From positions 1-64,000 of the IMG/VR virus record IMGVR_UViG_3300032236_000862: a DNA stretch of 64,000 nucleotides; one strand, written 5' to 3'. This DNA is from a virus. How positions within the stretch are numbered: position 1 is the stretch's first letter; each line of letters begins with the position of its first letter. Positions 2,925-61,779 of the stretch are shown one piece after another. The notes beneath the pieces were generated by a model. The model did not search any database. It saw only the letters and a list, made by a program, of their open reading frames with translations, and was not told the origin of the DNA. The position numbers and the translations under genes were made by a program.

Positions 2925-4685
2925 TTACGCTGTTGCGCTTCCGGTTAGTTGTGACAACTTGACCACAACAAACTCTGCTGGATATTCGAGTGCAACGCCT
3001 ACTTCAATATTCACATATCCATTTGAAATGGATGAGAATGGGTTGATAGTAGAGTCACAGATTACATAGTAAGCCTGCGAGGAATTTGTTCCACGCAAAC
3101 CACCTTGCTGCCAATAAGTAAGCAAGAAGCCACCGATAGCAGACTTGAGCTGAGTCCAAAGATTAGCATCGTTGTTCTCGAAGACGGCAAACTGTGAAAG
3201 CTGTGCGATCTGCTTTTCGATGTAAATCAATGAGCGGCGTAGGTTGATATAGCGGTTGCCTGGGTTATTAGTAAGAGTACGACCACCCATAATAACAATA
3301 CCTGCACCTGGGACGTTGCGGATAGTGTTGACAGGGTTGATAGATGAGTTGAGGCTGTTCAGGTCAGCATTTGTAAACTGGTACTCTGTAGAGAGTGCGT
3401 TTGCAAGCTGGTTCTGAAGACCTGCTGGAGTCTTCTGAGGTCCACGAAGGATATCGGTTGCAATGTATTGTCCTACAACCATTCCGCCTGGAGCCTGTAG
3501 AGAAGTAGTTCCCTGAGACTTAGTTGCATCTGGGACGTAAACCCATGGCCAGTATGCGGCTGCAAGGTTTCCGTAGTTACCGCCAATGTCAGCAACAGTG
3601 TTAACAATCTGGTTCTGAGCAGCTGTAGCTGAACCAAGTCCAGATGGAGTATCAACGACTGCAAATGCATCTGTGCGTGTAGATGCATAGCTGATTGCAT
3701 CAGCGTGCATTTGAGCAGCAGTTGCTGCTGTGCTTGCATATGAAGCATCTGGAGCATAAAGAACCAAAGAGCTTCCTACGCTGTCAAAGTTAGTCCATGC
3801 TGTCTTGTAAGCAGCGGTGTTAGGTGTTGAACCGTCTGTGCCGCCTGCAAGAGTAACTGCTGCGCCACCTGTGTATGGGAACTTAGCATTGTTAATGTTT
3901 GATACTACACCCAAGGTAGTAGAAGTAGCATTGACAATTGAAGCAATATAGTTAGGGTCTGAAGCATTCATGCTGAGATCAGTAAACTGCTCTACAACAG
4001 CGGTGCTTGTGTTTCCGTTAACTGTTACATTCTGAGTTACAGTGATACCAAAACGGGTTGAAGTTCCGCCAGGAACAATCTGAACCTGGTAGTTCTGTGA
4101 CCATGCGCCTGCATTATCAGCAGATAAAGTAAAGCAAACGCCTGGAGTTACAGTAGCTGTGGCAGAAGCGCCGGTTACTGCTGTACCTGTTGCAGCGTTT
4201 GTAACTGTGAAGCTAGTGGTTGTTGGAACTGTTCCAATTAGCACACCGCTCAAGTTAAACGCAGTGGTGCTAAGACCAGTGATGCTTACAGTCTGTCCCA
4301 CAGAGAATCCGTGAGCAGCTGAGGTTGTGTAGGATACTACGCCGCCTGAAGCAGATGCCGCAGTAACGGTTGCTGTAAGGGTTGTAGATCCGTCAGTAAA
4401 CGATGCAGAACCGGTTGTTGCGCCTGTTCCTAGAACACGGTTTACATAAAGGTTACGGCCACCATTTGAGAAGTAGTGATACGCAGCCCATGTTGTTGGG
4501 TAGGAGTTGTTTAATCCACCATAAATATTTTGGAAGTCACGCCAGGTTCCACAAAGTGTTGGAACAACTGGACCCTGTGGTAGGGTACCTGAGAAAGCAC
4601 CACACGCAGCACTGAAGTCTGTTGGTGTGATAGCTTGCTGTAATGCGACTTCTTGGATATACACTCCGGGACGTTGGTATGTCAT
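2925..4685 (-). CDS. Contractile tail sheath protein with inserted beta domain
   Basis: The N-terminus YQRPGVYIQEV is the hallmark of phage sheath proteins, and the C-terminal half (INLRRSLIYIEKQI, FENNDANLWTQLKSAIGGFLLTYWQQGGLRG) is the conserved sheath core. Between about residues 93 and 175 a Thr/Ser/Ala-rich beta segment is inserted (AAHGFSVGQTVSITGL, then TTTSFTV). Similar segments occur in the 1250-residue tail protein and in the decoration-like protein at 41.0-42.0 kb. The protein has 586 residues, against about 660 in T4. It heads the sheath-tube-chaperone-tape measure run. Confidence 0.93.
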   Translation of the reverse strand: MTYQRPGVYIQEVALQQAITPTDFSAACGAFSGTLPQGPVVPTLCGTWRDFQNIYGGLNNSYPTTWAAYHYFSNGGRNLYVNRVLGTGATTGSASFTDGSTTLTATVTAASASGGVVSYTTSAAHGFSVGQTVSITGLSTTAFNLSGVLIGTVPTTTSFTVTNAATGTAVTGASATATVTPGVCFTLSADNAGAWSQNYQVQIVPGGTSTRFGITVTQNVTVNGNTSTAVVEQFTDLSMNASDPNYIASIVNATSTTLGVVSNINNAKFPYTGGAAVTLAGGTDGSTPNTAAYKTAWTNFDSVGSSLVLYAPDASYASTAATAAQMHADAISYASTRTDAFAVVDTPSGLGSATAAQNQIVNTVADIGGNYGNLAAAYWPWVYVPDATKSQGTTSLQAPGGMVVGQYIATDILRGPQKTPAGLQNQLANALSTEYQFTNADLNSLNSSINPVNTIRNVPGAGIVIMGGRTLTNNPGNRYINLRRSLIYIEKQIAQLSQFAVFENNDANLWTQLKSAIGGFLLTYWQQGGLRGTNSSQAYYVICDSTINPFSSISNGYVNIEVGVALEYPAEFVVVKLSQLTGSATA

Positions 4686-7931: not shown

Positions 7932-8921
7932 TCACCTATTAAACTCTTTAGGGATGTACCCCTCTTTAAATGGCCCGTACTTAAGGTTGATCTTTGTGTA
8001 CCTGCAGAACCGGTCAACCTTGGCCTTGTTAGCCGGGTTAGTTACGTACTTTACCCAGTTGTCCCTAATATTGTTGTAGTACTGCTCATTAGGAAGTATC
8101 TTAGGGTTGGCTCCACTTACCCTGTAGGTTGGGTGCAGTACTTGATCAAAGTCTGTATTATTTTGAAATAGATGAGATAAAGGAACGGTCATGTTTGGAA
8201 AGACTAAAGAAAAGCCAGCCTCTAGCAAACTCATGGTTTGAATGATCTCTTCTTCCCAGAAAATAGTGTCTATATCTAAGCCGGTATTACCAAAATAATG
8301 CTTGTTAGAGAAGACAAACTGAGCGTTAAACTTAACAGCAGGTACATATAGATCGTCTGACCTGTACATGTGCGAATCAGGACCGGCCAACGGTTCGTCT
8401 TTCCAAGCAGGAATTCCTGTATTTACCCATGTCCTAAACAACATGATGGGGTACTGGGCAAGCTTATCGTGCCTTAAAGGAACACGCTCACCGTTATCTA
8501 GATGTTTAAACCCAGGCAAATAAGCTGTCATAATTGTTTTTGGATTTTGAGTAGCTTCTAGGGCACCCTCGTACATCTTAATAAGCTTAGTATCCCAATT
8601 TCTTTCAAAGAGTGTATGGGAATCTACTTGAAGAATATAGTCTTCCCCGTCATACATAGATAGGGCTTGATCTCGACCAAAACCGATAGACGGTTCATAC
8701 TCCCCTACCTTAAACCTCTTAAACTTAACTTGGGAGAATTCAAGTAGCTTCTCAATCTTATCTTTATAGTAGAACTCATAGTCTACATTTGAATGGGCAG
8801 TCTCCATAAGAACAAGGCCTATAGTTAAGTCGTCTGGATTAGCGGCGCTTTGGATAGCCTCAAATACGGTAAAGGGAACCTGGTTATCATACATGGTTGG
8901 GATAGCAATATAAATAGACAT
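7932..8921 (-). CDS. GlcNAc-type glycosyltransferase (GT-A fold)
   Basis: This 329-residue protein begins with a Rossmann-like strand (IYIAIPTMYDNQVPFTV) and contains GFGRDQALSMYDGEDYILQVDSHTLF. Here the GR-x-A helix and the DSH (DxD-like) metal and sugar-nucleotide site match the GlcNAc-transferase family related to eukaryotic Skp1 GlcNAc transferase. The later segment with FWEEEIIQTMSLLEAGF fits the acceptor region. It would transfer a sugar to a virion protein or host glycan. It sits among structural genes, which favours virion glycosylation, but that is inference. Confidence 0.8.
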   Translation of the reverse strand: MSIYIAIPTMYDNQVPFTVFEAIQSAANPDDLTIGLVLMETAHSNVDYEFYYKDKIEKLLEFSQVKFKRFKVGEYEPSIGFGRDQALSMYDGEDYILQVDSHTLFERNWDTKLIKMYEGALEATQNPKTIMTAYLPGFKHLDNGERVPLRHDKLAQYPIMLFRTWVNTGIPAWKDEPLAGPDSHMYRSDDLYVPAVKFNAQFVFSNKHYFGNTGLDIDTIFWEEEIIQTMSLLEAGFSLVFPNMTVPLSHLFQNNTDFDQVLHPTYRVSGANPKILPNEQYYNNIRDNWVKYVTNPANKAKVDRFCRYTKINLKYGPFKEGYIPKEFNR

Positions 8922-8922
8922 A

Positions 8923-9087
8923 TTAATCCTCTAGGTCTACAAAGGTTGGGTTATTTAAAAACAGGGATGCCAATCTAGCACTGTTTACTGCGAAGACTTC
9001 TACAATCTCTCCGTCTATTACTATACCTAGACGTATAGACCTTACCTCAGCAACTGGCTCGGCTTCCTTTTTCTTTTTAAACATCAT
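8923..9087 (-). CDS. Small fibre-associated protein with NPTFV motif (54 aa)
   Basis: It starts at ATGATG (complement 9087) overlapping the stop of the 227-residue gene. The product is a Lys-rich head (MMFKKKKEAE), then IRLGIVIDGEIVEVFAVNSARLASLFLNNPTFVDLED. The pattern of two short strands, a helix and NPTFV recurs in the proteins at 16210-16452 and 15114-15500, so three genes in the fibre region share it. Function unknown; likely a small accessory to fibres or their chaperones. Confidence 0.65.
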   Translation of the reverse strand: MMFKKKKEAEPVAEVRSIRLGIVIDGEIVEVFAVNSARLASLFLNNPTFVDLED

Positions 9088-9767
9088 GAATACTCCTTTG
9101 GCTTACGCCATCGTCTTTTATAAACACCTGTTGTAGAGCGAAGAGTGCTGCTTCTTTCCACTTGATTATCTGTCTCAGTGTAGTCTTGGACGGATACCCA
9201 CTTATCCCTTTTAATGGGGATTAGCTGGGCAATCGGTGTTCCTGCAGGTATTGTACCTGTCCAACCCTCTCTTATGAAAAAGGGTACGTTACCCCAACCA
9301 GTAAACTCTTCGCTGTCAACAATCCCAGACATAGTAGTGAAAGGTAGGTCAAATCTATTTATTGGGTGCGTTAAAAGTGCGCTATATCCTGGAGGAACTT
9401 TCCAACCCCATTGACAGTTCCATGCAAGGTGGTTGTGGGCATGTCCAGCAGGACGTGGAATAGTATGGCCTGTCAAACCAAGTCGTTCGGTTAACACGGG
9501 GAAGCCTGTCTCTTCCCAGCTTAATCTAGATAGGCCCTCTTCGTCTAAAGTTACTTCTACATCAACGGGGGTAACCAACATATAACCAGAAATCATTGCG
9601 TCTAGAAAAGGTACACAGACTTTTAAGCCGTCGTATTTGACGCCATGCTTATCATAGTAATGACGCTCAGCATTTTTATACCAGTCTGGGACTTCGCTCT
9701 TTGCTGGTACTGGCGGTTTATGTTCTTTTTTTACACCAGGACTAGGTACAAACCTAAAGACCTTCAT
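9084..9767 (-). CDS. Conserved phage protein, paralogue of 15500-16192
   Basis: The 227 residues share about half their positions with the 230-residue protein at 15.5-16.2 kb. Common motifs are VPxWYxxxExH, GLKxCxPFxDxMIxGYxL, AGHxxNHLxW, WGWKxPxGxS, THPxNRxDLPFxTMS, EGWTGTIPAGTPxAQ and KRDxW. Conserved His, Trp and Asn suggest a compact beta-rich domain binding a small molecule or metal, but I do not know the function. Both copies begin MKVxRFVP and each is followed by a small NPTFV-type protein, so the pair of genes was duplicated together. Confidence 0.75.
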   Translation of the reverse strand: MKVFRFVPSPGVKKEHKPPVPAKSEVPDWYKNAERHYYDKHGVKYDGLKVCVPFLDAMISGYMLVTPVDVEVTLDEEGLSRLSWEETGFPVLTERLGLTGHTIPRPAGHAHNHLAWNCQWGWKVPPGYSALLTHPINRFDLPFTTMSGIVDSEEFTGWGNVPFFIREGWTGTIPAGTPIAQLIPIKRDKWVSVQDYTETDNQVERSSTLRSTTGVYKRRWRKPKEYS

Positions 9768-9786
9768 GCGCTCCTCCGTAAACTTT

Positions 9787-11052
9787 TTAACCTGTGATCG
9801 TGGCCGTAAAGTAACCTAAGGTACTTCCCTGAGCTTGATCCGACGTAGTCAAAATTATACCAGCTTTTGTTGCGGTAGGAGAACTGCCTAAAGTGGTTGT
9901 GGCGGTACCTACGCTAGTGGTTTGTGAATTATCGCTAAACGCTGTGGCGGTAACTGAAGTACCGTGAACTACAACCTTTAGAGAAGCTAAAATACCACTT
10001 AGGGTGGTGGTGGCAAGCGTGGAAACTGTTCCGGCCACTGATTGGTAAATTTTAAGCAAATACCGGATGTTCGTAGTTGTGGCAGACCCTGTTGCTGTAT
10101 AGGTAGATGAAACAGTATAACTACCGGTAGACGAGTAGGTTCCGGAATAGTATGGAGAGTAATTTGTGTAGGATCCTAGTGAACTATAAGAGGTGTAAGT
10201 TTGTGCTGTATATGGACTACTTACATCGCCAGTATTAGCTACAGCGTTGTTATATGAGGTGTAGGTTGGTTGAACATACGTGCTGTAGGTACCGTATTGA
10301 ACTACATACCGCTGTGAACCAACATATTGTCCGCCACCTATGTAAATATATGGTGCCTGGTATACACCAGGGTTTGCGGCGTAATACTGGTAGGTTCCGT
10401 GATCCCAATACCCTGCAGTAACATAGTTATACACGGTAGAGTATACGTATGCTCCGTCCCAAGAATAGTTGGTTCCTGAAACATAGTTTCCTGTACCTTG
10501 ATAAACAGTAGAGTAGTAGTAAGTGGTTCCGCTCGCATAATAACCTAGTGGCGTACCTGAGGTATATGGGGTGGCGTAGGTGTATGGGGCTGCATATGTG
10601 TACGGGGCAGTATAAGAATATGAGTACGTAAAGTAAGTATCGCTCTCAACACCCACAGCAGCAAGCCAGTTATTAGCATCAGTAACTAAAAAGGCAATAC
10701 CACTACCTAGGCTTACGTCGGCAGCAGTAGCGGTTATGTTTGGGTTACCCATATCTGTAGTAGATAGGGTGTTGTTTGAAGGAGAATCATAAGTTACTGC
10801 TTTTCCTGTAGCAGCAGCCCAGGTTCCCTTAAGAGAGGTCCAAAGACCTCCGCTTGAAGAGGTTCCTAGAAATGGCCCACCACGATTAAAAGTATCGGCA
10901 AATGATCCAGTAAACCACTGATGCCAAACGCCACCAATTTTAACCCAACCAGATGTTACAGAGTGCCAGCTTTGAATACCGCCGGTTGTCACCTTAGTTA
11001 GAATACTACCAGCTGTACGCCAAACCCCGCCTACTTTGACTTGACCACTCAT
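9787..11052 (-). CDS. Tail fibre protein: lectin-like domain split by Tyr-rich insert
   Basis: This protein has 421 residues. The N-terminus has a repeated VKVGGVWR/VKIGGVWHQW unit, then DTFNRGGPFLGTSSSGGLWTSLKGTW and FLVTDANNWLAAVG, the start of a concanavalin/laminin-G-like sandwich. Residues about 140-318 are a low-complexity insert with about 45 Tyr (YTYAAPYTYATPYTSG style). The sandwich resumes at IRYLLKIYQSVAG and ends ILTTSDQAQGSTLGYFTATI. The same split domain occurs at 16464-18215. Likely a host-surface adhesin; the Tyr-rich loop may be the variable binding surface. Confidence 0.7.
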   Translation of the reverse strand: MSGQVKVGGVWRTAGSILTKVTTGGIQSWHSVTSGWVKIGGVWHQWFTGSFADTFNRGGPFLGTSSSGGLWTSLKGTWAAATGKAVTYDSPSNNTLSTTDMGNPNITATAADVSLGSGIAFLVTDANNWLAAVGVESDTYFTYSYSYTAPYTYAAPYTYATPYTSGTPLGYYASGTTYYYSTVYQGTGNYVSGTNYSWDGAYVYSTVYNYVTAGYWDHGTYQYYAANPGVYQAPYIYIGGGQYVGSQRYVVQYGTYSTYVQPTYTSYNNAVANTGDVSSPYTAQTYTSYSSLGSYTNYSPYYSGTYSSTGSYTVSSTYTATGSATTTNIRYLLKIYQSVAGTVSTLATTTLSGILASLKVVVHGTSVTATAFSDNSQTTSVGTATTTLGSSPTATKAGIILTTSDQAQGSTLGYFTATITG

Positions 11053-11987
11053 TATACATACACCAACCAGACATCGCCTTCAATGCCTTGTCCAGAGGTT
11101 GGGGTAGAAGTGCTTACCCACGTATTGCGTACCACGTTAGAGGATGCTGTTACTGTAGATGCTGTTGTGACTGATCCGTTAGTCTGAGAGACGTATGAGG
11201 TTGTAGGTGTCTGCCAAGCAGGTAGGCCAGCAACCACTGTAAGAACTTGTCCGGTAGATCCGATACCCAAGCGTGTGTTTCCGCTGTTATAGATATGAAG
11301 GTCGCCGTTTGTTGTCAAAGTGCTTGTAGGAAGATATGAAGGTAGGGTAGACCAGGTTGGGATACCCCCAGAAACGGTCAGATACTGCCCTGTAGAGCCA
11401 ATACCTATGCGGCCTACAGTAGATGACCCAGTACCGTAGATAAGGTCTCCAGCGGTCGTTACAGTCGAAAGAGGGACCTTTGTAGCGATGGAGTTAGGCA
11501 GGGTTGTTGTAATAGATGTATTTAGGGAGTTGTAGTCAGTGCTGCCCACATAGAGAACGTTGCTTCCGCTTACCTGTGGAATACCCAAATAGCTTAAGGT
11601 AAACCCTGCTGTAGTAAGAAGGTTATTGGTTCCAGAACCAGTAGTTAGGGTGAGGCCCACACCGCCAGCAGAACTGGTAAGGATGGTGCTGCCGCCAGTT
11701 TTAGATACATACGGAGCGTTACCTACGCCATAGATCAGACCGTTTTCAATGTTTGCAAGACGCTGAGCTAGGGTAGTCCAGGATGTTGTACCTGTGCTAA
11801 AAGCTGTAGATGATGTGAAGTTAGATACAAGAACGCCGCCTGCAAAGCCGTCAGAAGGAACTCCGAGGCCTGTCTCAATAGCTCTGACTTCTTGCTGCAG
11901 AGAGTTTACGTCATTAGCTACAACAGTATCCTGAAGATCTACACGAGCTGTGTAGGGATAGACTGCACTAGGAAAACCGACTGTCAT
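11052..11987 (-). CDS. Tail fibre protein with repeated fibre motifs
   Basis: The 311 residues begin with a virion-attachment-like segment (YPYTARVDLQDTVVANDVNSLQQEVRAIETGLG), then carry repeats of TAGDLIYGTGSST...RIGIGSTGQYLTVSGGIPTW and TNGDLHIYNSGNTRLGIGSTGQVLTVVAGLPAW. These are common in triple-stranded beta fibres. The C-terminus (PTSGQGIEGDVWLVYV) is a short fibre tip. Start and stop overlap the neighbouring fibre gene. Role: part of a tail fibre or its shaft. Confidence 0.75.
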   Translation of the reverse strand: MTVGFPSAVYPYTARVDLQDTVVANDVNSLQQEVRAIETGLGVPSDGFAGGVLVSNFTSSTAFSTGTTSWTTLAQRLANIENGLIYGVGNAPYVSKTGGSTILTSSAGGVGLTLTTGSGTNNLLTTAGFTLSYLGIPQVSGSNVLYVGSTDYNSLNTSITTTLPNSIATKVPLSTVTTAGDLIYGTGSSTVGRIGIGSTGQYLTVSGGIPTWSTLPSYLPTSTLTTNGDLHIYNSGNTRLGIGSTGQVLTVVAGLPAWQTPTTSYVSQTNGSVTTASTVTASSNVVRNTWVSTSTPTSGQGIEGDVWLVYV

Positions 11988-12043
11988 ATAAACTCCTTCG
12001 CTTAATGCCCCCCACGATACCTGAAAACTACGGGATTGTCTGC

Positions 12044-12478
12044 CTAGCCAACTAGGTACTTGGTGCAGACCCCATAGATACCCTCAAAGATAGTTAAATC
12101 TTGGGGCTCTGTTAAGACCACGATTGACTTGTTGGTCAAGGTCTTGCCTGGGTAGGTCCAGATATATCCATTACTTGTCAGGGTGTGGTCGTCATTCTGG
12201 TGCCAGAAGAACCTGGCATCCGGGATGTTGTTAGAAAAATAGCCTAGGGCTTCTATGTTCTTGCAGTGGAACCAGGCTTTATCTTTAATAGAGTTGATAA
12301 ACTCCTCGTCAATCTGGTAGAAGGGTTCGTCATGTCCTAGGAACATACCCTCCGGATTCATCCAGACGTCCACTTCTACGTCATAGCCTTGAGCAATAGC
12401 AGAGATCACATCAACCGGGTTATTCTCCCCGTCTTTGTTCTCCCCACGGACCATACCCCTGTGGGCAATCTTAATCAT
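12044..12478 (-). CDS. Glycerophosphodiesterase-like protein
   Basis: The 144 residues carry the GDPD signatures: AHRG at the N-terminus (H6, R7), ENNP, VEVDVW (E35, D37) and GHDEP (H49). A full GDPD has about 240 residues, so this is a short version of the TIM barrel. It starts at ATG (complement 12478) after GAGGAG and overlaps the HAD-nucleotidyltransferase gene by 8 nt. It may hydrolyse a phosphodiester in a cell-surface polymer such as teichoic acid, or act on a glycan made by its neighbours. Confidence 0.7.
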   Translation of the reverse strand: MIKIAHRGMVRGENKDGENNPVDVISAIAQGYDVEVDVWMNPEGMFLGHDEPFYQIDEEFINSIKDKAWFHCKNIEALGYFSNNIPDARFFWHQNDDHTLTSNGYIWTYPGKTLTNKSIVVLTEPQDLTIFEGIYGVCTKYLVG

Positions 12479-13832
12479 TGTTGCTCCTCAAATAGTTGTT
12501 TAGATCCTCTGGAGTTCCAACTCCCCACATCTTATTAACATGCATAGCGTAGACACGCTTCCCGTCATTAATAGCTTCATTAAATACTGGGGCAGTGTAG
12601 AACTCTCCGTTGACAGTGATGTTCTTTTCAATCATCTGCTGAGCATACTTAACAAAGTCTGACCCATGCTTCCAATAGTAGATGCCCACTGTAGCGTGAT
12701 TACTAATAGGCTTCTTCTCAGCAACCTCTAAGACAAGGCCGGTATCGGAAGCGACTCTTGCATACGACCACTTAGGGTGGGTAGAGGTAAAGGTGGCAAT
12801 ACCTGCGTCAGCATTCTTGACATGCATGTGGTACATAAACTCTCTGCTATCCCAGTCAACTATCTGATCTGAGTTAGCTATGATGAGAGGGGCATCCATA
12901 TCAATGAAGTCTTTTGCCAATAAGCAGGTCTGTGCAGCCCCGCCTGTGAGATAAGGTGTTCCGACCAAGGTGCAGCCGGGGGTCATCCTATCTAACATGA
13001 ACATAAGGTTATACTTCTCAATGTGTTCTTGCAAAGACACATAAATATACTTAGCCTCTATACCAAGGCTTTCAACTACACGCTCAATCATAGGCTTGCC
13101 ATTTACCTCAATTAAGGGCTTGGGGAAGCTGTAACCAGCCTCAGCAAAACGACTACCTAACCCTGCCATAGGAATAAGGACGTTTAGTTTCTGGTCTTTA
13201 AAAGAAGAGGTCTTAGAAAGATGTTCAATAGCCATATCAATCTTTTCCTTTGTTAGGTCCGCCCTATTTTTGACCTCTATTAGATGGGCTCCGCTATCCC
13301 TAGCAGCAAGCTTACCTACAAAGCTATCTTCAAAAATAACTACCTTCTCTGGAATAGTCCTAAGGTGGCTCATCACAGCCCAGTACATCTCTGGATGGGG
13401 CTTGGGATTTTCAACGCTTTCATTTGATAAGGCAATATCAACATAGGAAAGTACCCCTAACTTAGTTAGGCAATCCCTTACTGTGTTGCCGATGCTATTG
13501 CTAGCAACACCTATCTTAATTCCTTTTGAGGCAATAAGCTCAAAGTATTCAATAAGGCCATTATCTTCTAAGACTTCAGCAAACATCTCAGTCGTGTACT
13601 GCTGCTTTAACTCCCAGATTAAAGGGTGAACTTCTTGAGATAACCCTTTATTTTCTGATAGTAAAAATAGCTTTTCTTTAGTAGGAAGGCCTTCGTATAT
13701 GTTAGTGTGCTCAAAGGGGCTAATCACACTTTCTGGGGATACATCTGCCAGCGCCTTGTTTAGGGCAAGAAAGTGAATATCCTTGCTGTCAATCAAGACA
13801 CCATCAAGATCAAAGATTATGACTTTATTCAT
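12471..13832 (-). CDS. HAD phosphatase - sugar nucleotidyltransferase fusion
   Basis: The start chosen is ATG at complement 13832 in ATGA overlap with the upstream stop; an alternative ATG lies 12 nt earlier. Residues 1-200 are a HAD enzyme like beta-phosphoglucomutase (FDLDGVL with D8 and D10, GVASNS, NPKPHPEMY, FEDS). Residues about 215-453 are an RfbA/GlmU-like nucleotidyltransferase (IPMAGLGSRF, FPKPLIEVNGKPMIE, ANSDQ). The fusion could dephosphorylate or isomerise a sugar phosphate and make an NDP-sugar, feeding the glycosyltransferases nearby. Both active sites look intact. Confidence 0.8.
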   Translation of the reverse strand: MNKVIIFDLDGVLIDSKDIHFLALNKALADVSPESVISPFEHTNIYEGLPTKEKLFLLSENKGLSQEVHPLIWELKQQYTTEMFAEVLEDNGLIEYFELIASKGIKIGVASNSIGNTVRDCLTKLGVLSYVDIALSNESVENPKPHPEMYWAVMSHLRTIPEKVVIFEDSFVGKLAARDSGAHLIEVKNRADLTKEKIDMAIEHLSKTSSFKDQKLNVLIPMAGLGSRFAEAGYSFPKPLIEVNGKPMIERVVESLGIEAKYIYVSLQEHIEKYNLMFMLDRMTPGCTLVGTPYLTGGAAQTCLLAKDFIDMDAPLIIANSDQIVDWDSREFMYHMHVKNADAGIATFTSTHPKWSYARVASDTGLVLEVAEKKPISNHATVGIYYWKHGSDFVKYAQQMIEKNITVNGEFYTAPVFNEAINDGKRVYAMHVNKMWGVGTPEDLNNYLRSNND

Positions 13833-14836
13833 GCGGATAACCATGCTTTCAAGAAGGAATCGTTTTCAATAGTACTTATGACTTCTTCAGAGCTTCTATT
13901 TAAGTTAGGAATTGATACATACCTATGCCCCAAACGAGCAGCCATTAGATGGTAGAAGTGATGCATCTCTTCCGTTCCTACAGAAGGAGGTTCAGTAACC
14001 CCATTGCCCACTTTAGTAAACGCAATTAATGGAGTGGTTAGCTCTAATACCGCAGACCCTGGAGGCATAAATGCTGCGTTGACAAGTCCAGAACTAGTGG
14101 TGGATGCAACCAGCTTAGCCTTACTAAAATAGCTGATCTGGGATTCAAAGGTTTTAAACTCATCTGGAGCCACAATCTCAAACCCCAAAGAAGCAAAGTA
14201 TTCCTCTACCTTGCCCTCATCGTCCATGCGATCATCGTCTTCATAGGGAAGTCGTCCCTTAATCAAAGCTTTTAATGACCTACCCTTATAATTTTTTCTT
14301 GATAGGTATACCTTTTTACCGTCTGCAATATTTACATCCGGGGTAACAAATTGTTTGGACATCTCATGAATTCTTGGCCACGGGTTGTTAACCTCATAGG
14401 ACTCAACATTAAGATCCCTGAAGTACAGGTTATTGACATTAAACTTGTTCATAACCCTAAGATCTACAGGGGCATAGTCTACGTTGTTCTTGTTAAGAAA
14501 CTTAAAGAAGTTCTGGATATAGGTAGGCAGTGGATCCCTATCTACAACTCCGGTGATGTCAATAACGAACAGAGCGTCAGGAGTTAAGGCGTACTGAGCT
14601 AAAAACTCTCCCAGGTCTTCATGCATGAAGTGGTAGAAAGATGCCCCAAGATATACAAACACCTTCATCTGATCTGAAACAAGGTCTTTTACATGCTTCT
14701 CTTTTTTACCAAACTTAGGGTGGACCTGAAAAATATTGATGTTATTGGCCGCAACTAACCCTACTTCTTCTGGGGCAAAGCGGTAAGACGTTTGATACGA
14801 CGTATGGTTTAGCGTAGTTGTGCTAGTAGACTTCAT
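13829..14836 (-). CDS. GT61-like glycosyltransferase (capsular polysaccharide type)
   Basis: The 335-residue protein resembles the DUF563/GT61 family. It has a central KKVYLSRKNYKGRS motif, then YFASLGFEIVAPDEFKTFESQISYFSKAKLVASTTSSGLVNAAFMPPGSAVLEL, the usual nucleotide-sugar binding C-lobe where a conserved segment tests for secreted or capsule chains. It overlaps the HAD-nucleotidyltransferase gene by 4 nt. Together they look like a unit that makes and transfers a sugar, either onto virion fibres or to alter host glycans. Confidence 0.75.
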   Translation of the reverse strand: MKSTSTTTLNHTSYQTSYRFAPEEVGLVAANNINIFQVHPKFGKKEKHVKDLVSDQMKVFVYLGASFYHFMHEDLGEFLAQYALTPDALFVIDITGVVDRDPLPTYIQNFFKFLNKNNVDYAPVDLRVMNKFNVNNLYFRDLNVESYEVNNPWPRIHEMSKQFVTPDVNIADGKKVYLSRKNYKGRSLKALIKGRLPYEDDDRMDDEGKVEEYFASLGFEIVAPDEFKTFESQISYFSKAKLVASTTSSGLVNAAFMPPGSAVLELTTPLIAFTKVGNGVTEPPSVGTEEMHHFYHLMAARLGHRYVSIPNLNRSSEEVISTIENDSFLKAWLSA

Positions 14837-15114: not shown

Positions 15115-15500
15115 TACTCTGCACCTCTTCGGGTCACCCCTTGTACATTAAACGGCTCAAACTTACCGTCTTTATACATAGATCCAATAGTTGGGCGTTC
15201 ATCACCCTCATTGACCGGTGCAAATACTGGGCCCTTTAAAAGAATATCCGCAAAACCCTTTTGAACATTCATGACATCTACAACCACATCATCTAAGACA
15301 ATGGCTAAAGAAACTACCTCTATACCGGTAGGCTGCTCATTTACTGCGCATTCGGGACCGTGCACGTGCTCCGCAGGGGCATGGTTGTGCTCATGGCTGT
15401 GCTTCTTTTCCCTACGCTTGTTCTTTAGGTACTTAGCAAACTCTTTAGTGCCCATAGGCTTAATCTCTGGAACGTCGTAGTTCCTAATGACTTTATCCAT
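15114..15500 (-). CDS. His-rich fibre-associated protein
   Basis: The ATG at complement 15500 overlaps the previous stop (TAATG) and is preferred to an earlier ATG at 15524 that would overlap the upstream gene by 25 nt. The 128 residues carry a basic region, a His cluster (KHSHEHNHAPAEHVHGPEC) able to bind metal, and then LAIVLDDVVVDVMNVQKGFADILLKGPVFAPV. That last segment matches the two-strand/helix/NPTFV module at 8923 and 16210. No known family. Confidence 0.65.
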   Translation of the reverse strand: MDKVIRNYDVPEIKPMGTKEFAKYLKNKRREKKHSHEHNHAPAEHVHGPECAVNEQPTGIEVVSLAIVLDDVVVDVMNVQKGFADILLKGPVFAPVNEGDERPTIGSMYKDGKFEPFNVQGVTRRGAE

Positions 15501-16192
15501 TATTCGTAATCCTTCTTGACCCACTCAACGTTTTTATACTTGTATTGTTCGACACGTACATTTGCAGACTTAATTTTTCCCAAAGCCGTAAGACCTACGT
15601 CTACGAATGACCTCCACGAGTCTCTCTTTACGGGAATAATTTGAGCAAATGGGGTACCGGCAGGAATAGTTCCAGTCCAACCTTCTTTTAGGTGGAATGG
15701 GATATTACCATTAGTAAAGAACTTATCACTGTCAATAGTAGCAGACATAGTTCTAAATGGAAGATCGCCCCTATTAAAAGGGTGAGTAACAATAGTACTC
15801 CAGCCCCTGGGGGTTTTCCAACCCCACTTAGATGACCATACTAAATGGTTCTTGCGGTGCCCGGCAGGAATTGGAATAGTTGCTCCAATAGCCCCAGGAC
15901 GTTCCCCCACAAATCCAGCCCATTCATCTGGGCCATCCCACTTCAAACCGATCTTTCCATTTTCATCTTCGGTCACGTGGATATCAAAGGGTATAAGGAG
16001 AAAATACCCTCCGATCATTACATCAATAAAGGGTTTACAGGTCTTAAGGCCGGCTTGGTTGTTGCCGTTTTCATCAACCCAATGGAACTCGCCGTCCCTA
16101 TACCACTGAGGTACATGCTTCTTGCATGCCGCAGGTTCGAGCAACATCTTTTCTTTGTCTTCAATTTCTGGAACAAATCGTATTACTTTCAT
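15500..16192 (-). CDS. Conserved phage protein, paralogue of 9084-9767
   Basis: The 230-residue protein shares the full set of motifs described for its paralogue: THPFNRGDLPFRTMS, EGWTGTIPAGTPFAQ, PFIDVMIGGYFL. It differs in the acidic middle loop (VTEDENGKIGLKW) and C-terminus. It precedes the His-rich protein with a one-base overlap. Catalytic residues cannot be assigned; the conserved HLVWSSKWGWK and TIPIPAGH suggest a shared binding pocket. Confidence 0.75.
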   Translation of the reverse strand: MKVIRFVPEIEDKEKMLLEPAACKKHVPQWYRDGEFHWVDENGNNQAGLKTCKPFIDVMIGGYFLLIPFDIHVTEDENGKIGLKWDGPDEWAGFVGERPGAIGATIPIPAGHRKNHLVWSSKWGWKTPRGWSTIVTHPFNRGDLPFRTMSATIDSDKFFTNGNIPFHLKEGWTGTIPAGTPFAQIIPVKRDSWRSFVDVGLTALGKIKSANVRVEQYKYKNVEWVKKDYE

Positions 16193-16463: not shown

Positions 16464-18215
16464 TTAGTTTGACTGGGAATTGAAGTCGTCTAGTTGATTA
16501 CCTTGAACGTAATCAGAAGGTCCTAGGACGATTCCAAACTTAGTGGCTATTGTAGCACCTGTTGCTGTATATGTGAGGTCGGAACCTACTTGGGTGGTCA
16601 AAGCGGTATTTGAGTATGGGCGGACAGTAATAACCTTAGTTACAGCATTGGTAATTACCTTAAAAGCTGCAGCAAGCTGGGATAGGCTCCAACGGGTAAT
16701 CTCAGATACAACGTTTCCTGAGGACTGGATAAGTCGGATATATCCTGGGAAGCAGGTCTGGCAGTTACAAGAGGTGTATCCGTATACTGGGCTGGAGCAA
16801 TATGGGGCATAGGTAGAGTAATAAACCGTACATACTGGGCCATAATAGTTGTTTGTGTAAGAGTTGCAGTTAGGTCCAGAGTAGCTTACTATGCCGTAGC
16901 CGGCTACGTTAGGTCCAGAATAACTGACAATTCCGTAGTTGGCTAATGGGCCAGAGTAGCTAGTAAGTCCGTAGTTAGCATTTGGGCCAGAATAGCTGCT
17001 GGCTCCATAACCGTTACAGGTTGGGCCATTATAGCTTGAGATGCTATAAGAAACGCAAGTGCTTCCCGCATACACAACGCAGCTATAGCTTGCTACGCCA
17101 TATGCAGCGCAGCTATAGTAGGTTGAGTACGCCAAACAACCCGATACATACGCAGTACAGCCGTAGTTGCCCGAGCTTCCCTTAATGTAATAGTTGCCGC
17201 CCTTGTAGTAAACGTTGCTATAGCTTGTTACTCCATAGGAGCCACAGGCACCAGAATAATAAGTGGAGCATGCCCCACCAGATGAGTAAGATGAACAGCC
17301 GTAGTTATTTTGATAAGCAACACATTGAGGGGAGTAAGCTCCACAGGAATAGTTGGCCGAATAGGAATACCCTCCGGTACAGCCGTATCCAGTAATAGCG
17401 TACGAATAGCTGCTTACCCCATAGTTTGCTGCGTATGAGTAAGAAGAGATGCCGTAGTTTGTAGCATAGGAATAGGATGTTGCACCATAGTTAGTGGCGT
17501 AGGAGTATCCTCCGGTACAGGATGCGCTTACATAGTAGGCATAGTTACCACAGTAGCTTCCGGTAACATAGTTGGTAAATCCTGCACAAGAGTATGTAGC
17601 ACAAGTAGAGCAGTTACATGAGGTGTTGGTTGAACGGCCATAGGTTACGCCCCACCAGTTACCTGAGTCAGTAACCCATAGGGCAACTCCCGCACCACCA
17701 TCATTATTGCGGGTGGCAACGTTAGTAATGGTTCCTGTGGTAGGGGCTATGGTGGCCTGTACTTCAAGGGTAATCTGGCTTGAGCTATCTACAGAAACGA
17801 TCTGAATATCGCTATCTGATCCCAATGATCCGGTACCAGCTGTGGCTGAGATCCATTGTCCAGGTGCAAGTCCTCCTGTAGAACTAAGACCTGTAATAAC
17901 AACCGTATACCCACTAGTTGTGGCCGTTACGGTGGAGATAGTTCCTGAGGCAGAGAAGACAAAGGTAGATCCAACAGAGATTGATGAGGTATTGTTGCTG
18001 GAGGTCATATTGATATCAGCAAGGGGGAATGAAGATGCTGCTGTGGCAGTAGTAGCAGAGTATCCGTTGGCGCTCCAAACGCCACGCTCTGCGTTCCAAG
18101 CACCGCCTGAGCTAGATGTTCCTAGCGAACCTGAGGTGGTTCTGTTAAAGTTATCCGAAAAGGTAGCAAACGCCGTTTGGATAAAGTTCATTAACCCTTG
18201 AAAAATACCAGACAT
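16464..18215 (-). CDS. Tail fibre protein: lectin-like domain split by Tyr/Cys-rich insert
   Basis: The 583-residue protein has a lectin-type start (DNFNRTTSGSLGTSSSGGAWNAERGVW), a Ser/Thr beta insert with GLAPGQWISA, then ALWVTDSGNWWGVTYGR. Residues about 197-491 are a Tyr/Ser/Gly/Cys-rich insert with roughly 24 Cys, repeats of SSYSYAxNYG and YSGPNxxGYGIV, and a CNCxTC motif at each end (about 200-205 and 483-488). The sandwich resumes at YIRLIQSSG and ends IVLGPSDYVQGNQLDDF. The flanking Cys motifs could lock the insert by disulfides or metal. Likely adhesin. Confidence 0.7.
   Translation of the reverse strand: MSGIFQGLMNFIQTAFATFSDNFNRTTSGSLGTSSSGGAWNAERGVWSANGYSATTATAASSFPLADINMTSSNNTSSISVGSTFVFSASGTISTVTATTSGYTVVITGLSSTGGLAPGQWISATAGTGSLGSDSDIQIVSVDSSSQITLEVQATIAPTTGTITNVATRNNDGGAGVALWVTDSGNWWGVTYGRSTNTSCNCSTCATYSCAGFTNYVTGSYCGNYAYYVSASCTGGYSYATNYGATSYSYATNYGISSYSYAANYGVSSYSYAITGYGCTGGYSYSANYSCGAYSPQCVAYQNNYGCSSYSSGGACSTYYSGACGSYGVTSYSNVYYKGGNYYIKGSSGNYGCTAYVSGCLAYSTYYSCAAYGVASYSCVVYAGSTCVSYSISSYNGPTCNGYGASSYSGPNANYGLTSYSGPLANYGIVSYSGPNVAGYGIVSYSGPNCNSYTNNYYGPVCTVYYSTYAPYCSSPVYGYTSCNCQTCFPGYIRLIQSSGNVVSEITRWSLSQLAAAFKVITNAVTKVITVRPYSNTALTTQVGSDLTYTATGATIATKFGIVLGPSDYVQGNQLDDFNSQSN
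16743..17627 (-). repeat. Tyr/Cys-rich low-complexity insert with short tandem units
   Basis: Within the split-lectin fibre gene, this stretch encodes short repeats (SYSYAxNYG units near 17400-17510; SYSGPN/NYGIV units near 16870-17000). Many 10-20 bp DNA repeats could recombine and change loop length. Boundaries were set by the flanking CNCxTC motifs. Confidence 0.7.
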
Positions 18216-18811
18216 TACGTAAGCCCATTTCCGCTAATCATCCAAATAGTTGAGGCAATCTTTAATAAGGTTGCTACACCATATGCTGCTAAAGTTCTGC
18301 TTCCTGTAGCACCGGTTCCTGCTTGAAGTAGCGTATCAGAGGTAATTGAAACTGTCATAGTTACTCCACTAGCTGCAACCAAGGCTACTGAAGTTCCTAC
18401 AGGAAAACTTACAGAAGTATTTGCTGGAATAGTAACTGTGCCGCTACCTGTGAAGTAGATGTGCTTTCCAGCATCGCTTGCAGATATTGAGTATGACCCA
18501 AGTTGTAAATTTTGTGGCATACCTGTATAGCCCAAACCAGCAGCTGCACTTGTTATGGTTGCAGACGTTGGGCTAATGCTTGCTGCTAGAGTACCTGCGG
18601 TTATGTTTGAGGCAGGAAAATAACCCGAGGTAATTGTACCTAGGGTAGTAATTGAAGAAGAACCTGAATAGCTGGATGGGGAAAACGATACGCCATTTAT
18701 AACTAAAGAGCCCAGGCTTCCAGACCCGCCAATGTTTAAAGCGCCATCTACGTTTAGAGATGAAACTTTAAGCGGGTCTATATACCTGTGTTCTAGCTTA
18801 TTTAAAGCCAT
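18215..18811 (-). CDS. Tail fibre/tip protein
   Basis: The 198-residue protein starts MALNKLEHRYIDPLKVSSLNVDG and continues with fibre-type beta repeats (SLGSLVINGVSFSPSSYSG, TITSGYFPASNITAGTL). Its C-terminal beta domain (LQLGSYSISASDAGKHIYFTGSGTVTIPANTSVSFPVGTSVALV) resembles receptor-binding tips. It overlaps the split-lectin gene (TAATG). Likely part of the same fibre complex. Confidence 0.7.
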   Translation of the reverse strand: MALNKLEHRYIDPLKVSSLNVDGALNIGGSGSLGSLVINGVSFSPSSYSGSSSITTLGTITSGYFPASNITAGTLAASISPTSATITSAAAGLGYTGMPQNLQLGSYSISASDAGKHIYFTGSGTVTIPANTSVSFPVGTSVALVAASGVTMTVSITSDTLLQAGTGATGSRTLAAYGVATLLKIASTIWMISGNGLT

Positions 18812-58238: not shown

Positions 58239-60269
58239 TTAGGCGTTATCTTTGATTAGTTTTACTTCACACGCATCTGTAGTGCAATAGGCCTCACCGA
58301 TTGCATCAAATGCCATGCCTGCATACACACCGCTCAAATCAATTGGGAAGTGGGTCATGCGGGCTTCTTCGTACTCTTCAGCATTACTCTGAGTGTAAGG
58401 CATCTGAGGATATAGCGTATCATCCATGGCTAGGAAGGATACGGTCTTTAGTTGACCATCATACATATGCAATACGGTTCCGATTGCATCAGACTCGGTC
58501 TTTGGGTCAAACGATACGGTAACAGAAACAGAGTTATCTGACCAGTACCTCTGAGCAGTGGCAGCGATTGCCATCTTCTCATAGATAGAGACTTCCTTCT
58601 CAGAACGCATAGCATCTGACTTCACTGGGAAGTATACAACAGATGTTCCGTCCGGATCTGAAGCTGACGGCTCAACCTTGTAGTTAGCCATCTTGAACAA
58701 TGGGAGCATAGGGTCGCTATTAGAGAACCTAATTGTGCGCATAAAGAACTTACCGCCTGGAGTCCAGTGAACTCCTGGGGATTCTCCCGCTAGGATTGAG
58801 ACTGTGCCGGATGGCTTTACTGTGGTCATCTTGATTGACTCACGGATACCAAGCCATTCGGAGTAACTCTTATCATAGCCTTGGATGACTGCATAGCCGT
58901 CGTCCATCCAGGTACGAAGCAAGGGAAGACCCTTCGTATCTGCAAAGTTTGCGATACCGGAGATTGAAGTACCGATGCGGCGGTTGCGCTGCATGATGGC
59001 GTTTGTCTCTTCCCAGTGGGTAGGGATGAGAGTTACAGTCTTGGCATAGAGATAGGCGAACTTGAGCGTGCGCTTAAAATCTTCCAGGCTGTCGTGGCGC
59101 CCAATGTAGGTCTCTACCAATGTACAGCACTCCATTGATTCCAATGATTGTTCAGCACATGGGTTGTACCCGGCCGCTCTCCAGTCCTTGTTGTTGATCG
59201 GATCAGCTAGACGCCCGTACTTACGGGTGGTGTCCATCCAGATCACGCCAGGCTCACCATTGCGGGCAATACCCTCAATGATCTTTGATAGGTCTTGGCC
59301 AACCTCTACCTCAACGGAGTTGTTGGACATCCAGCCCCAACCAGGATTGGCAGGATCATAGGAGTTACGCTCTGGGAACATCTCGGCGTTCTTAAGATTA
59401 ATAAACTCTTCGTCATCCAAACGGCCAATTAGGAGCTCGGCTGAGCGACGGACGTTACCGGAGACTACACACACGCCGATTAGGTTACCGATGTCTGCGA
59501 TGTCACGGCGAGTCAGCTTTTGGCCAGCTCTGTTATCAAAGATCTTAGCTAGTTGGTCGTGGAGTTTGATGAGCGGATCGGGTCCAGCCGCAGTACCTCC
59601 GAAGGTCTTGATTGGAGTTCCGTATGGTCGGATTGCCGAGTAGTCAAATGTAGGCTTCTTCGTATCTGGCTTAAGGTAGCTATTGATGACGGCAGCCGTA
59701 GATTCGTACCAGCCTTCTCTGGTGTCGGGGATGACATAGGTGTCTCCTTCTGTAGGTGCATAGATAGTGAAGTCCTTGTCTGCACCCTTGTCATCGAATC
59801 CTACGCCTACGCCCAGCATTGATGCCTCCATCAAGAAAGAGAAAGGCTTAGCCGGATCGTTCTTAGTCATAGCATTTGTAGATACAAAGCTGCAGTTCTG
59901 CAACGCTGCAGAGTTTTTCTGTTCATTAACCTGAGGAGTTCCCATCATCCATAGGCCTCGGCCAGGTGGGGTCCACTTCAGGTTAAATAGTCGGTCGAAA
60001 GCTTCTTTGGCTGAAGTAGCAGCCTTGATATCAGACCAAGGCAGGCGGTTCTGCTTGGCATGGTCTTTTTGGAGAGAGTACATGCCGTTGATGACACGCT
60101 CACATACATCTGTCCAAGTCTCTTTGGTACCGTCCTCTTTAAGACGAGAGTAGGTACGCAAGAAAGTAATTTCCCCAAGAGAGTTGCCAGCAGCATCCTG
60201 ATAACCCCACGGGACCTTCTTTGACCGGTACGGAGTTACAAAATCATCTGCGAGTTTAAACGAAAACAC
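58239..60269 (-). CDS. nrdJ: Class II (B12-dependent) ribonucleoside-triphosphate reductase
   Basis: The 676-residue protein is a monomeric adenosylcobalamin-dependent reductase. LQNCSF gives the first redox Cys (C126), NPCAEQ (369-374) the catalytic Cys and Glu, and YCTTDAC at the C-terminus the shuttling thiols (C662, C667). VVSGNVRRSAEL and MTTVKPSGTVS are family motifs. It makes dNTPs for phage replication and needs cobalamin, in contrast to class I enzymes of many phages. No thioredoxin or other reductase subunit lies next to it. Confidence 0.93.
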   Translation of the reverse strand: MFSFKLADDFVTPYRSKKVPWGYQDAAGNSLGEITFLRTYSRLKEDGTKETWTDVCERVINGMYSLQKDHAKQNRLPWSDIKAATSAKEAFDRLFNLKWTPPGRGLWMMGTPQVNEQKNSAALQNCSFVSTNAMTKNDPAKPFSFLMEASMLGVGVGFDDKGADKDFTIYAPTEGDTYVIPDTREGWYESTAAVINSYLKPDTKKPTFDYSAIRPYGTPIKTFGGTAAGPDPLIKLHDQLAKIFDNRAGQKLTRRDIADIGNLIGVCVVSGNVRRSAELLIGRLDDEEFINLKNAEMFPERNSYDPANPGWGWMSNNSVEVEVGQDLSKIIEGIARNGEPGVIWMDTTRKYGRLADPINNKDWRAAGYNPCAEQSLESMECCTLVETYIGRHDSLEDFKRTLKFAYLYAKTVTLIPTHWEETNAIMQRNRRIGTSISGIANFADTKGLPLLRTWMDDGYAVIQGYDKSYSEWLGIRESIKMTTVKPSGTVSILAGESPGVHWTPGGKFFMRTIRFSNSDPMLPLFKMANYKVEPSASDPDGTSVVYFPVKSDAMRSEKEVSIYEKMAIAATAQRYWSDNSVSVTVSFDPKTESDAIGTVLHMYDGQLKTVSFLAMDDTLYPQMPYTQSNAEEYEEARMTHFPIDLSGVYAGMAFDAIGEAYCTTDACEVKLIKDNA

Positions 60270-60309: not shown

Positions 60310-61779
60310 TTACTTATTTAGATTGTCATCTATGATCTTGCTGACTTCACCCTCATTGAGCCCACCGTTGGGGATCTCCCGCAGTGTATTCGCCCGGTCT
60401 CCGAAGAGAGCGGAAAGCATACCACCTGAGGATTGCCGCTGAGCTGTGATCTGGATGAACTCCTTGTTTTCCTCTAACTTCTTGACTTCTCCTACCAATT
60501 TAAATAGGCGGTCAATTTCCTGACCGGTGTTAGGATCTGGGTACCCACCGTTCAATTCTTCAGCAAAACGTGCAAAAGCGACCCTAGCACCCTGCATTTC
60601 GATAACTGCGTTGAGCAAACCCTTCAGCTGTTCTTTAGTCTTTACTTCGACTGGGAGGTTAAACGCACAACTGTTGTTAGGTTTGAACGCCGGACAATTC
60701 GCCGCAACGAAGCAAGTATTGCATTGCCTGAACGATGAGGTCGTACTTTTAAGGACCGGTACATCACTGATTACATCCCTTCCTAGGTCATCTTTTTCCA
60801 TGATGGTCTTGTTTGAAACGCCAAAAACGGGCAGCGTCATGGTCTCATTTGGGTCTCTAGGCGTGAATTCTTTCCGCACCTCAACCCCCCTGTTATCAGG
60901 TTCCACACCCCTGGTTTCCGCTAAACCTGGATCATCCATTGCACCACTGTTATCAGATAACTTCTTACTATTCAAGGACTTCTCCAACTGCAGGTAGGAC
61001 CAAATAGCGAGGCGGGTTACCTCGTTACTATCATCATTCATAATCTTATCGAAGTCGAGTCCGGCCTTCTCGATGATCGCCTTGTAGCGAGGACGAGCTT
61101 GGTCTTTCTGCTTCTTCTGATACCGGACAAGTCTAGTGCCGTCCCAGACAATAGTCTCACCTCTCATCATTGGGCTAAGCCATGAGAGAGTGCTGGCGGT
61201 TGCCAACGGGACTTGTCGTAGATTATCTGGTTTAGCACAGGCAACCCCGTGAAACTCTAGATCTGGGAACTGAGCCAGAAATGCCCTAGAACGTGCTGAC
61301 AGGCTGGTGTCGTCCTCTAAGGACTCTCCAAGCAGTGCGACGTTGGGATACTGGGATGCCAAGGCGTAGAGACCATTGTGGCCCGTTTCCTGGTGCCATA
61401 CCACAGCATACTTGTCTAGCCCAAACTCCTCGCCAAAGGTTTTCCTCTGGTAGTTGATCCAGGTAGATCCAAGAGCTTTGGCATCCAACTCGGTAGCCAT
61501 AGTGATCCTATCGGCATTGATAGCCAGGAAGTCCTGGTAATCAGCCGCATAGTCCTCGAGCTCTCGCTCTGTCATGTTCAGGTCGTTGACGTTATGGCCG
61601 CCGCCATCCAGGTAGATCTTTACATCATCTGGGAAGCGATCGGCCAGAATATAGTCCTTGGTCTTTGGCAAGCCACGCTTGACTAGACGCCAGTAGTTGA
61701 TGCTTATGTGTTTAGCCCCTACAGAAGTAAGGAGAGTTCTATGACTGGGTACTTCTCCGCCCATGAAGACTATGTTCAT
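60310..61779 (-). CDS. TIM-barrel-like protein with Cys cluster (distant TGT/DpdA resemblance)
   Basis: The 489-residue protein has strands and motifs in the order of a transglycosylase TIM barrel: IYLDGGGHNV (Asp-Gly-Gly), ITMATELDAKALG, YAVVWHQETGHNG, NVALLGESLED, EFHGVACAKPDNLRQVPLATASTLSWLS. After that, C-terminal to a linker, is QCNTCFVAANCPAFKPNNSCAF, a four-Cys site. The order of DG, LD, HQ, and late W/S motifs recalls tRNA-guanine transglycosylases and DpdA, but this is a weak match by eye. No 7-deazaguanine synthesis genes are seen in the window. Confidence 0.5.
   Translation of the reverse strand: MNIVFMGGEVPSHRTLLTSVGAKHISINYWRLVKRGLPKTKDYILADRFPDDVKIYLDGGGHNVNDLNMTERELEDYAADYQDFLAINADRITMATELDAKALGSTWINYQRKTFGEEFGLDKYAVVWHQETGHNGLYALASQYPNVALLGESLEDDTSLSARSRAFLAQFPDLEFHGVACAKPDNLRQVPLATASTLSWLSPMMRGETIVWDGTRLVRYQKKQKDQARPRYKAIIEKAGLDFDKIMNDDSNEVTRLAIWSYLQLEKSLNSKKLSDNSGAMDDPGLAETRGVEPDNRGVEVRKEFTPRDPNETMTLPVFGVSNKTIMEKDDLGRDVISDVPVLKSTTSSFRQCNTCFVAANCPAFKPNNSCAFNLPVEVKTKEQLKGLLNAVIEMQGARVAFARFAEELNGGYPDPNTGQEIDRLFKLVGEVKKLEENKEFIQITAQRQSSGGMLSALFGDRANTLREIPNGGLNEGEVSKIIDDNLNK

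Follow-up and report, generated by a model that had tools for sequence, protein, structure and literature searches.

Fibre gene A lies on the minus strand of the 64,000-nt window, by which we mean the whole stretch of DNA analysed here, itself part of a 100,328-base virus record that may be incomplete. The gene raises the question of what a segment of 289 residues, counted from CNCSTC to CNCQTC inclusive, is doing between two halves of one lectin-like domain, and what kind of structure its many cysteines could build. The protein starts with a short helical stretch and the sandwich comes next; the N-terminal half ends with WVTDSGNWWGV and a short linker, after which the insert begins. Its features, in the order of the protein and followed by its paralogue, are:

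16464..18215, minus strand: fibre gene A, 583 aa, from the list of open reading frames; relatives L002, L003 and L010 have the same plan
17619..18164, minus strand: N-terminal half of the lectin-like sandwich, residues 18-199; AlphaFold2 pLDDT mostly 80-93, with family-wide conservation
17706..17999, minus strand: second beta domain inside the N-terminal half, ~98 aa (about residues 73-170), from the alignment; strands at pLDDT 77-93
17601..17618, minus strand: CNCSTC, residues 200-205, predicted first rungs of the N arm, from the motif and the rule that CxC faces CxxC
17244..17618, minus strand: predicted N arm of the insert, residues 200-324, 12 Cys, with gaps of 1, 2, 4, 11, 10, 45, 11, 6, 8, 8 and 7
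17160..17243, minus strand: predicted tip between the arms, residues 325-352, placed on the central Cys-free gap of 28 residues
16752..17159, minus strand: predicted C arm of the insert, residues 353-488, 12 Cys, a mirror of the N arm, with reversed gaps of 2, 1, 9, 10, 11, 49, 12, 7, 9, 8 and 6 (permutation p=0.0002)
16752..16769, minus strand: CNCQTC, residues 483-488, predicted last rungs of the C arm, from the motif
16467..16751, minus strand: C-terminal half of the sandwich, residues 489-583; AlphaFold2 pLDDT 79-95
9787..11052, minus strand: paralogous fibre B, 421 aa, with a Tyr-rich insert of 0 Cys at the site matching that of fibre A, from the list of open reading frames and the alignment

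An earlier note on this DNA, made from the letters and their translations, had described a lectin-like fibre domain split by a Tyr/Cys-rich loop, and most of that description is borne out. A CNCxTC motif does stand at each boundary (residues 200-205 and 483-488), and the insert of the paralogue is indeed Tyr-rich and free of Cys at the same site. The count of about 24 cysteines inside the insert is correct as a number but slightly overstated as a location, as 24 is the total for the whole protein, 6 of them in the two C-x-C-x-x-C motifs and 18 between these. The protein also contains 67 Tyr and no His, and its insert is rich in Tyr, Ser, Gly, Asn and Cys and in NNY codons. Both flanks of the insert align to one unbroken domain in other proteins. 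Judged from these sequence comparisons, the combination of a split domain, a CNC frame and a Cys-rich insert is above chance and recurs in dozens of diverged proteins. By alignment, the ~98-aa beta domain in the N-terminal half occurs in the group of A-type proteins and in L010, and is missing from most relatives; it is unrelated to the sandwich that it interrupts.

The scaffold can be modelled with confidence. AlphaFold2 gave pLDDT values of 80-96 across the modelled scaffolds of fibre A and the relative L039, with values >90 over much of the L039 sandwich, and in both models strands lie directly before and after the insert. The insert itself had no usable model in either protein (pLDDT <50). 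Foldseek searches with the scaffold returned legume lectins, VIP36, Lactococcus YwfG and Douge gp20 at probabilities of 0.7-1.0, and further matches to the receptor-binding domain of TM4 gp23 (PDB 9N6A) and to rotavirus VP8*. E-values to L-type lectins ranged from 0.008 to 0.8 with TM-scores <0.5, and as all E-values exceed 0.001 we read these matches as fold resemblance only. With that reading, and with flanks that align to one continuous domain, the lectin-like split sandwich of the earlier note stands: the models point to a scaffold that resembles an L-type (concanavalin A-like) lectin beta-sandwich in its fold.

Relatives were collected from IMG/VR, where fibre A itself has three close relatives, about 25 proteins were recovered with the CNCxTC pattern and many more by profile. 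Later scans relied mainly on motifs of the scaffold (W[VI]TD[SA][GN]NW and similar), and consequently the set was not chosen for its cysteine pattern. Grouping by shared 4-mers gave 66 sequence clusters, of which 54 form a first set and 12, unlike them, a second set. Arms range from a few tens to >200 residues, and both their length and the number of cysteines vary among relatives, as expected of the expandable insert that had been proposed; the small relative L072, for example, has 18 Cys in 290 aa, and L065 has 32 Cys. Three proteins (L175, L176 and L178) have a continuous sandwich with a short hairpin at the insertion site. The earlier note had treated relatives of this kind, with an intact domain and no insert, as a point against its reading; such relatives are thus found, but they mark where the insert entered and are not evidence against it, and we take the insert to be an expansion of one hairpin. 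In these three proteins the C terminus is instead a Cys-rich tail that includes long runs of proline, and the cysteines of this tail show no mirror spacing. Another type of insert, with 6-10 Cys and CxxGxxLxGxxC-like modules, occupies the same site in L077-L085. Several members of the family have few cysteines or none, which means that some versions can do without disulfides. In L073 and L075, the gene is split by an identical frame break at the predicted tip (around 4480-4640) with both arms intact and mirrored, which could reflect decay, a shared sequence error or frameshifting.

Searches of the libraries agree with the statement in the earlier note that no described family has this plan. 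None of 20 members matched Pfam or PHROG at E<=0.01. Protein searches found no full-length relative in 50,697 phage records, where Burkholderia and Vibrio phages gave short matches only, at the N-terminal end of the queries, and no relative was found in 84,980 bacterial and archaeal genomes. A search across 5.39 million papers, few of them from subscription journals or preprint servers, found no description of such a family. By predicted structure, proteins of uncultured Caudovirales (A0A6J7WYT9, A0A6J5RDN1, A0A6J5KM36 and others) belong to the same family, with E-values down to 2e-23; they are unannotated, with neither a function nor the insert architecture described.

Comparison of these proteins reveals three regularities. 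The first is that cysteines come in pairs. The number of Cys in the insert is even in 64 of 64 cluster representatives from both sets, with totals from 0 to 46. Counted from the NWW motif onward, it is even in 53 of the 54 clusters of the first set (P=3e-15 on a coin-toss null), the exception being L194, with 6 Cys in the insert and one in the C-terminal half. The other 19 residues, used as a control, are even in roughly half of the 54 clusters, the lowest p being 0.02. In the second set, for which the statistics had been fixed beforehand, even counts were found in all 12 new clusters. Across 51 clusters the counts are multiples of four in 28 and leave a remainder of two in 22, which fits pairs and not metal sites of four cysteines.

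The second regularity is the order of the spacings, which reads as a mirror image from the centre of the insert outward. In fibre A the gaps between successive cysteines are 1, 2, 4, 11, 10, 45, 11, 6, 8, 8 and 7, then the central 28, and then 6, 8, 9, 7, 12, 49, 11, 10, 9, 1 and 2. When gaps were permuted within each protein, for the 47 clusters with at least 8 Cys, mirror symmetry reached p<0.05 in 34 (33 of 47 on a repeat run), and fibre A, at p=0.0002, lies at the permutation floor. Direct-repeat order reached p<0.05 in only 4 of the 47, and the same mirror test applied to Tyr, Asn, Ser, Gly, Thr and Ala gave 0-4 of up to 52 clusters. Most of the 13 clusters above the threshold have few or uniformly spaced cysteines. 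The Cys-rich tail of L175, which is not an insert, gave p=0.8, whereas the 36 Cys of the L260 insert are mirrored at p=0.0003. Over all gaps (n=304), N-arm lengths correlate with mirrored C-arm lengths with a Spearman coefficient of 0.68, against 0.20 without mirroring, and CxC lies opposite CxxC in 58 pairs, where the null mean is 10. Since the clusters share ancestry, pooled p-values overstate the evidence, and we place the weight on separate skeletons and on the second set, in which 7 of 11 clusters are mirrored at p<0.05 (Fisher 1.5e-8; direct order p=0.43). Gene duplication would yield direct repeats and not mirror spacing, and the symmetry therefore needs a structural cause. Two further comparisons do not distinguish the mirror register. 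Module similarity between the arms favoured it at first, but this was driven by segment length and the register was not singled out once length was controlled; the conservation profile along the arms gave mirror correlations of 0.73 and 0.85, with equal values in direct order.

The third regularity is that the two arms change together: when close relatives differ by a gained, lost or lengthened rung, the difference appears on both. Where fibre A has facing gaps of 45 and 49, L002 has 23, 21 and 24, 23, with one new Cys near the middle of each. L003 has 33 and 34 in their place, along with fused gaps of 17 and 17 where one rung is missing, and the long gaps of L010 are 40 and 41 and 15 and 15. 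A three-Cys module that is present once on each arm of L058 is present twice on each arm of L113, and in L051 a CNC newly gained on one arm is faced by an equally new CSC on the other. Between L045 and L047, the modules SPSYP and GGYYYA have swapped sides in two places that face each other. Most pairwise comparisons of relatives show lower conservation in the insert than in either half of the sandwich (75% against 88% and 97% for fibre A and L002), and the C-terminal half of fibre A is 97% and 83% identical in its two closest relatives. A time series from the same site was uninformative about change, as L002 and L004 show no difference across 11,701 bases.

At the DNA level, the short repeats mentioned in the earlier note exist in the fibre A insert but are weak: the longest exact direct repeat is 12 bp, and the gene holds a single tandem array (2.0 x 39 bp, 81%). 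The repeat units keep their residues mostly with different codons, and with at most 12 bp of exact match they look old, unlike the products of recent slippage. The proposal that such repeats allow length change by recombination is therefore not evident in fibre A. Elsewhere in the family, the insert modules of L047 and L235 differ little in DNA, which shows that duplication has happened recently in other members.

Given cysteines that are pairwise, mirror-spaced and co-varying, the simplest structure is a stalk of two arms in which cysteine i is joined to cysteine n+1-i. We consider it likely that the insert is such an antiparallel stalk, stapled by disulfides and grown from a hairpin of the lectin-like sandwich, with a putative role in receptor contact. 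In this model, the strands on either side of the insertion site would form a beta-hairpin of the sandwich that has been drawn out into an N arm of about 125 residues, a tip of about 28 and a C arm of about 136. The arms would run antiparallel and in register, with cysteines of equal rank from the base of each arm joined by a disulfide, giving 12 rungs in fibre A and 2 to 23 in relatives that have Cys. For fibre A, the predicted pairs, from base to tip, are 200-488, 202-485, 205-483, 210-473, 222-462, 233-450, 279-400, 291-387, 298-379, 307-369, 316-360 and 324-353. We infer both the disulfides and their pairing from the statistics of the sequences. Rungs and spacers would be added, lost or lengthened pairwise, so that the length and surface of the stalk may change while the scaffold is left undisturbed. 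The arms are probably extended, although Tyr lacks the lag-2 alternation typical of strands, which leaves an extended beta conformation without independent support from the sequence. A fully extended chain measures 3.3 A per residue, an upper bound at which the predicted fibre A stalk would be some 40 nm long. The faces and tip, rich in Tyr, Ser, Asn and Gly, would most likely touch the surface of the host cell, the protein being a putative tail-fibre receptor-binding protein. The insert is a putative binding loop, as had been suggested.

Other explanations account for parts of these data. The arms might be paired in register just as described, with the rung cysteines binding metal (a Zn, Fe or Cu thiolate), as a CxC and a CxxC together provide a four-Cys site. 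The basal CxC opposite CxxC is a plausible Cys4 site that occurs six times in L065, the 58 such pairs across the family are in keeping with it, and the needle of T4 gp37 contains seven coordinated iron atoms, held by histidine (PMC6957217). Yet most rungs consist of one Cys pair and are separated from one another by 4-50 residues, counts in the family go up in twos and not in fours, and fibre A contains no histidine at all. We therefore regard metal binding as unlikely. The earlier note had offered disulfide or metal staples: disulfides are favoured by the even counts and the mirror spacing, while metal as a general rule finds no support, given the 2 mod 4 counts and the lack of His in fibre A. 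An equally unlikely alternative sees the insert as one compact, disulfide-rich domain or as several small granulin-like or EGF-like knots stacked together, whose pseudo-twofold symmetry would generate mirror spacing without any ladder. Disulfide-rich folds such as granulins can show symmetric Cys spacing, and the CxxGxxLxGxxC-like modules of the L077-L085 inserts have the look of such units. A fixed fold, however, would forbid arms that vary in step from a few tens to >200 residues and Cys-free gaps of 40-50, and the number of rungs ranges from 2 to 23.

Low AlphaFold2 confidence, a composition dominated by Tyr, Ser, Gly and Asn and the existence of the Cys-free paralogue fibre B would also suit a disordered, sticky loop of low complexity, comparable to an adhesive linker, whose cysteines make unspecific cross-links between chains. 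Such a loop has no reason to show strict parity and mirror spacing for Cys and for no other residue, and we consider it very unlikely. The least probable reading, to which we give hardly any weight, attributes the variability to a diversity-generating retroelement or to slippage of DNA repeats and not to selection on a structured stalk. The Tyr/Ser/Gly/Asn/Cys-rich, NNY-codon-rich insert and the near-identical DNA modules of L047 and L235 speak for it. Against it, the fibre A repeats are encoded by different codons, their longest exact match being 12 bp, and neither process explains mirrored Cys spacing. A diversity-generating retroelement was in fact looked for and rejected: the 100,328-base record, possibly incomplete, contains no reverse transcriptase (RVT_1).

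The proposed antiparallel disulfide-laddered stalk can be set beside two known systems. In the needle of T4 gp37, domain D11 is inserted in the collar domain D10, with stem arms at 882-931 and 960-1009 and a tip at 932-959 that contacts the receptor (PMC6957217). Like it, the insert of fibre A interrupts a globular fibre domain and is predicted to be elongated, with a pair of equal arms, a tip between them and staples along its length. The T4 collar, however, is not a lectin-like sandwich, and its staples are His-iron sites in a trimer; the fibre A family has a predicted Cys ladder of 2-23 rungs with changing spacing, and no sequence relationship was seen. Neither the gp12/gp37 collar fold nor HxH iron sites were found, the scaffold matching lectins and fibre A having no His. 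In bovine antibodies, the ultralong CDR-H3 is a loop of 52-63 residues rich in Tyr, Gly, Ser and Cys (4-8 Cys) on a two-stranded stalk, and antibody BOV-4 pairs its cysteines 1-6, 2-5 and 3-4 (PMC6440498). The bovine loop is drawn from a hairpin of a beta-sandwich; the fibre insert, also Tyr/Cys-rich, may be drawn from one too, a hairpin judged only from the flanking strands of the models, and its even, mirror-spaced cysteines would likewise be paired. In the bovine loops the cysteines are concentrated in the knob, pairing patterns are many and the origin is somatic, whereas the fibre inserts have roughly 100-500 residues and a predicted regular ladder; there is no homology. The insert would work like both systems and is a member of neither.

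Among the best scaffold matches is the central fibre gp20 of Mycobacteriophage Douge (PDB 8ZDP; Foldseek probability 1.00, E 0.012), whose domains bind mycobacterial cell-wall glycans (PMC13033339). No sequence similarity to the family was detected in Douge gp20 or TM4 gp23, and no Cys-rich insert was seen in the match. The L-type lectins (legume lectins, VIP36 and YwfG) have the sandwich in common with the fibre scaffold and are set beside it by fold alone.

Fibre A may lie in a tail or fibre region of the genome. The gene upstream of it (18215-18811) matches tail PHROGs (E 6e-5 and 4e-4), and the 1250-aa gene preceding that one encodes a virion structural protein. A contractile-sheath gene is present in the window. 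The terminase has about 51% identity with its counterpart in Streptomyces phage BRock, while the large virion structural protein is closest to cyanophages (about 44%), and an actinobacterial host is no more than a guess. Both fibre genes have a gene of one family downstream:

15500..16192, minus strand: phrog_7084-family gene, 230 aa, downstream of fibre A, from a PHROG match
9084..9767, minus strand: paralogue of the phrog_7084-family gene, ~230 aa, downstream of fibre B, from a PHROG match

Of the 63 clusters with enough sequence, 44 have a phrog_7084 homologue downstream of the ladder fibre. Haloarchaeal tailed viruses such as HSTV-2 also carry a homologue, and the function of the family is unassigned. 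We considered it as a dedicated partner of the fibre and rejected the idea, as the HSTV-2 homologue sits near thymidylate synthase and DNA polymerase and the link is consequently not exclusive.

Around and between both fibre genes (7932-14836, minus strand) lie glycosyltransferases (GT61 and GlcNAc type) and a HAD/nucleotidyltransferase fusion, and sugar decoration of the fibres or virion by these enzymes is possible. At 58239-60269 (minus strand), there is a match to ribonucleotide reductase (alpha and class II insertion, with a portion of the barrel domain); the adjoining 489-aa ORF at 60310-61779 (minus strand) might carry the remainder of a split enzyme. DsbA, thioredoxin and Erv1/Alr were searched for in the virus record and none was found, so that oxidation of the cysteines would depend on the host or the outside medium.

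In sum, the fibre itself is of a known kind, and what appears new is the mirrored Cys ladder as an evolvable insert. We judge the chances somewhat better than even that this constitutes a new class of architecture, an evolvable antiparallel disulfide ladder whose rungs are changed in register and which gives a large number of uncultured phages a receptor probe that varies while its lectin-like scaffold stays constant. The analysis yields a disulfide map, predicted from sequence alone, for a family that has neither a usable insert model nor a name in the libraries searched. Mirrored gaps would reveal paired changes of strands in the way that paired changes reveal an RNA stem, and the mirror rule offers a way of recognising and parsing such proteins in metagenomic data. 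Stable, extensible binding rods zipped by disulfides might be derived from the modules of the insert. For the phages themselves, the combination of a constant scaffold and a predicted stalk whose strands change together suggests how environmental phages may diversify a fibre without a retroelement.
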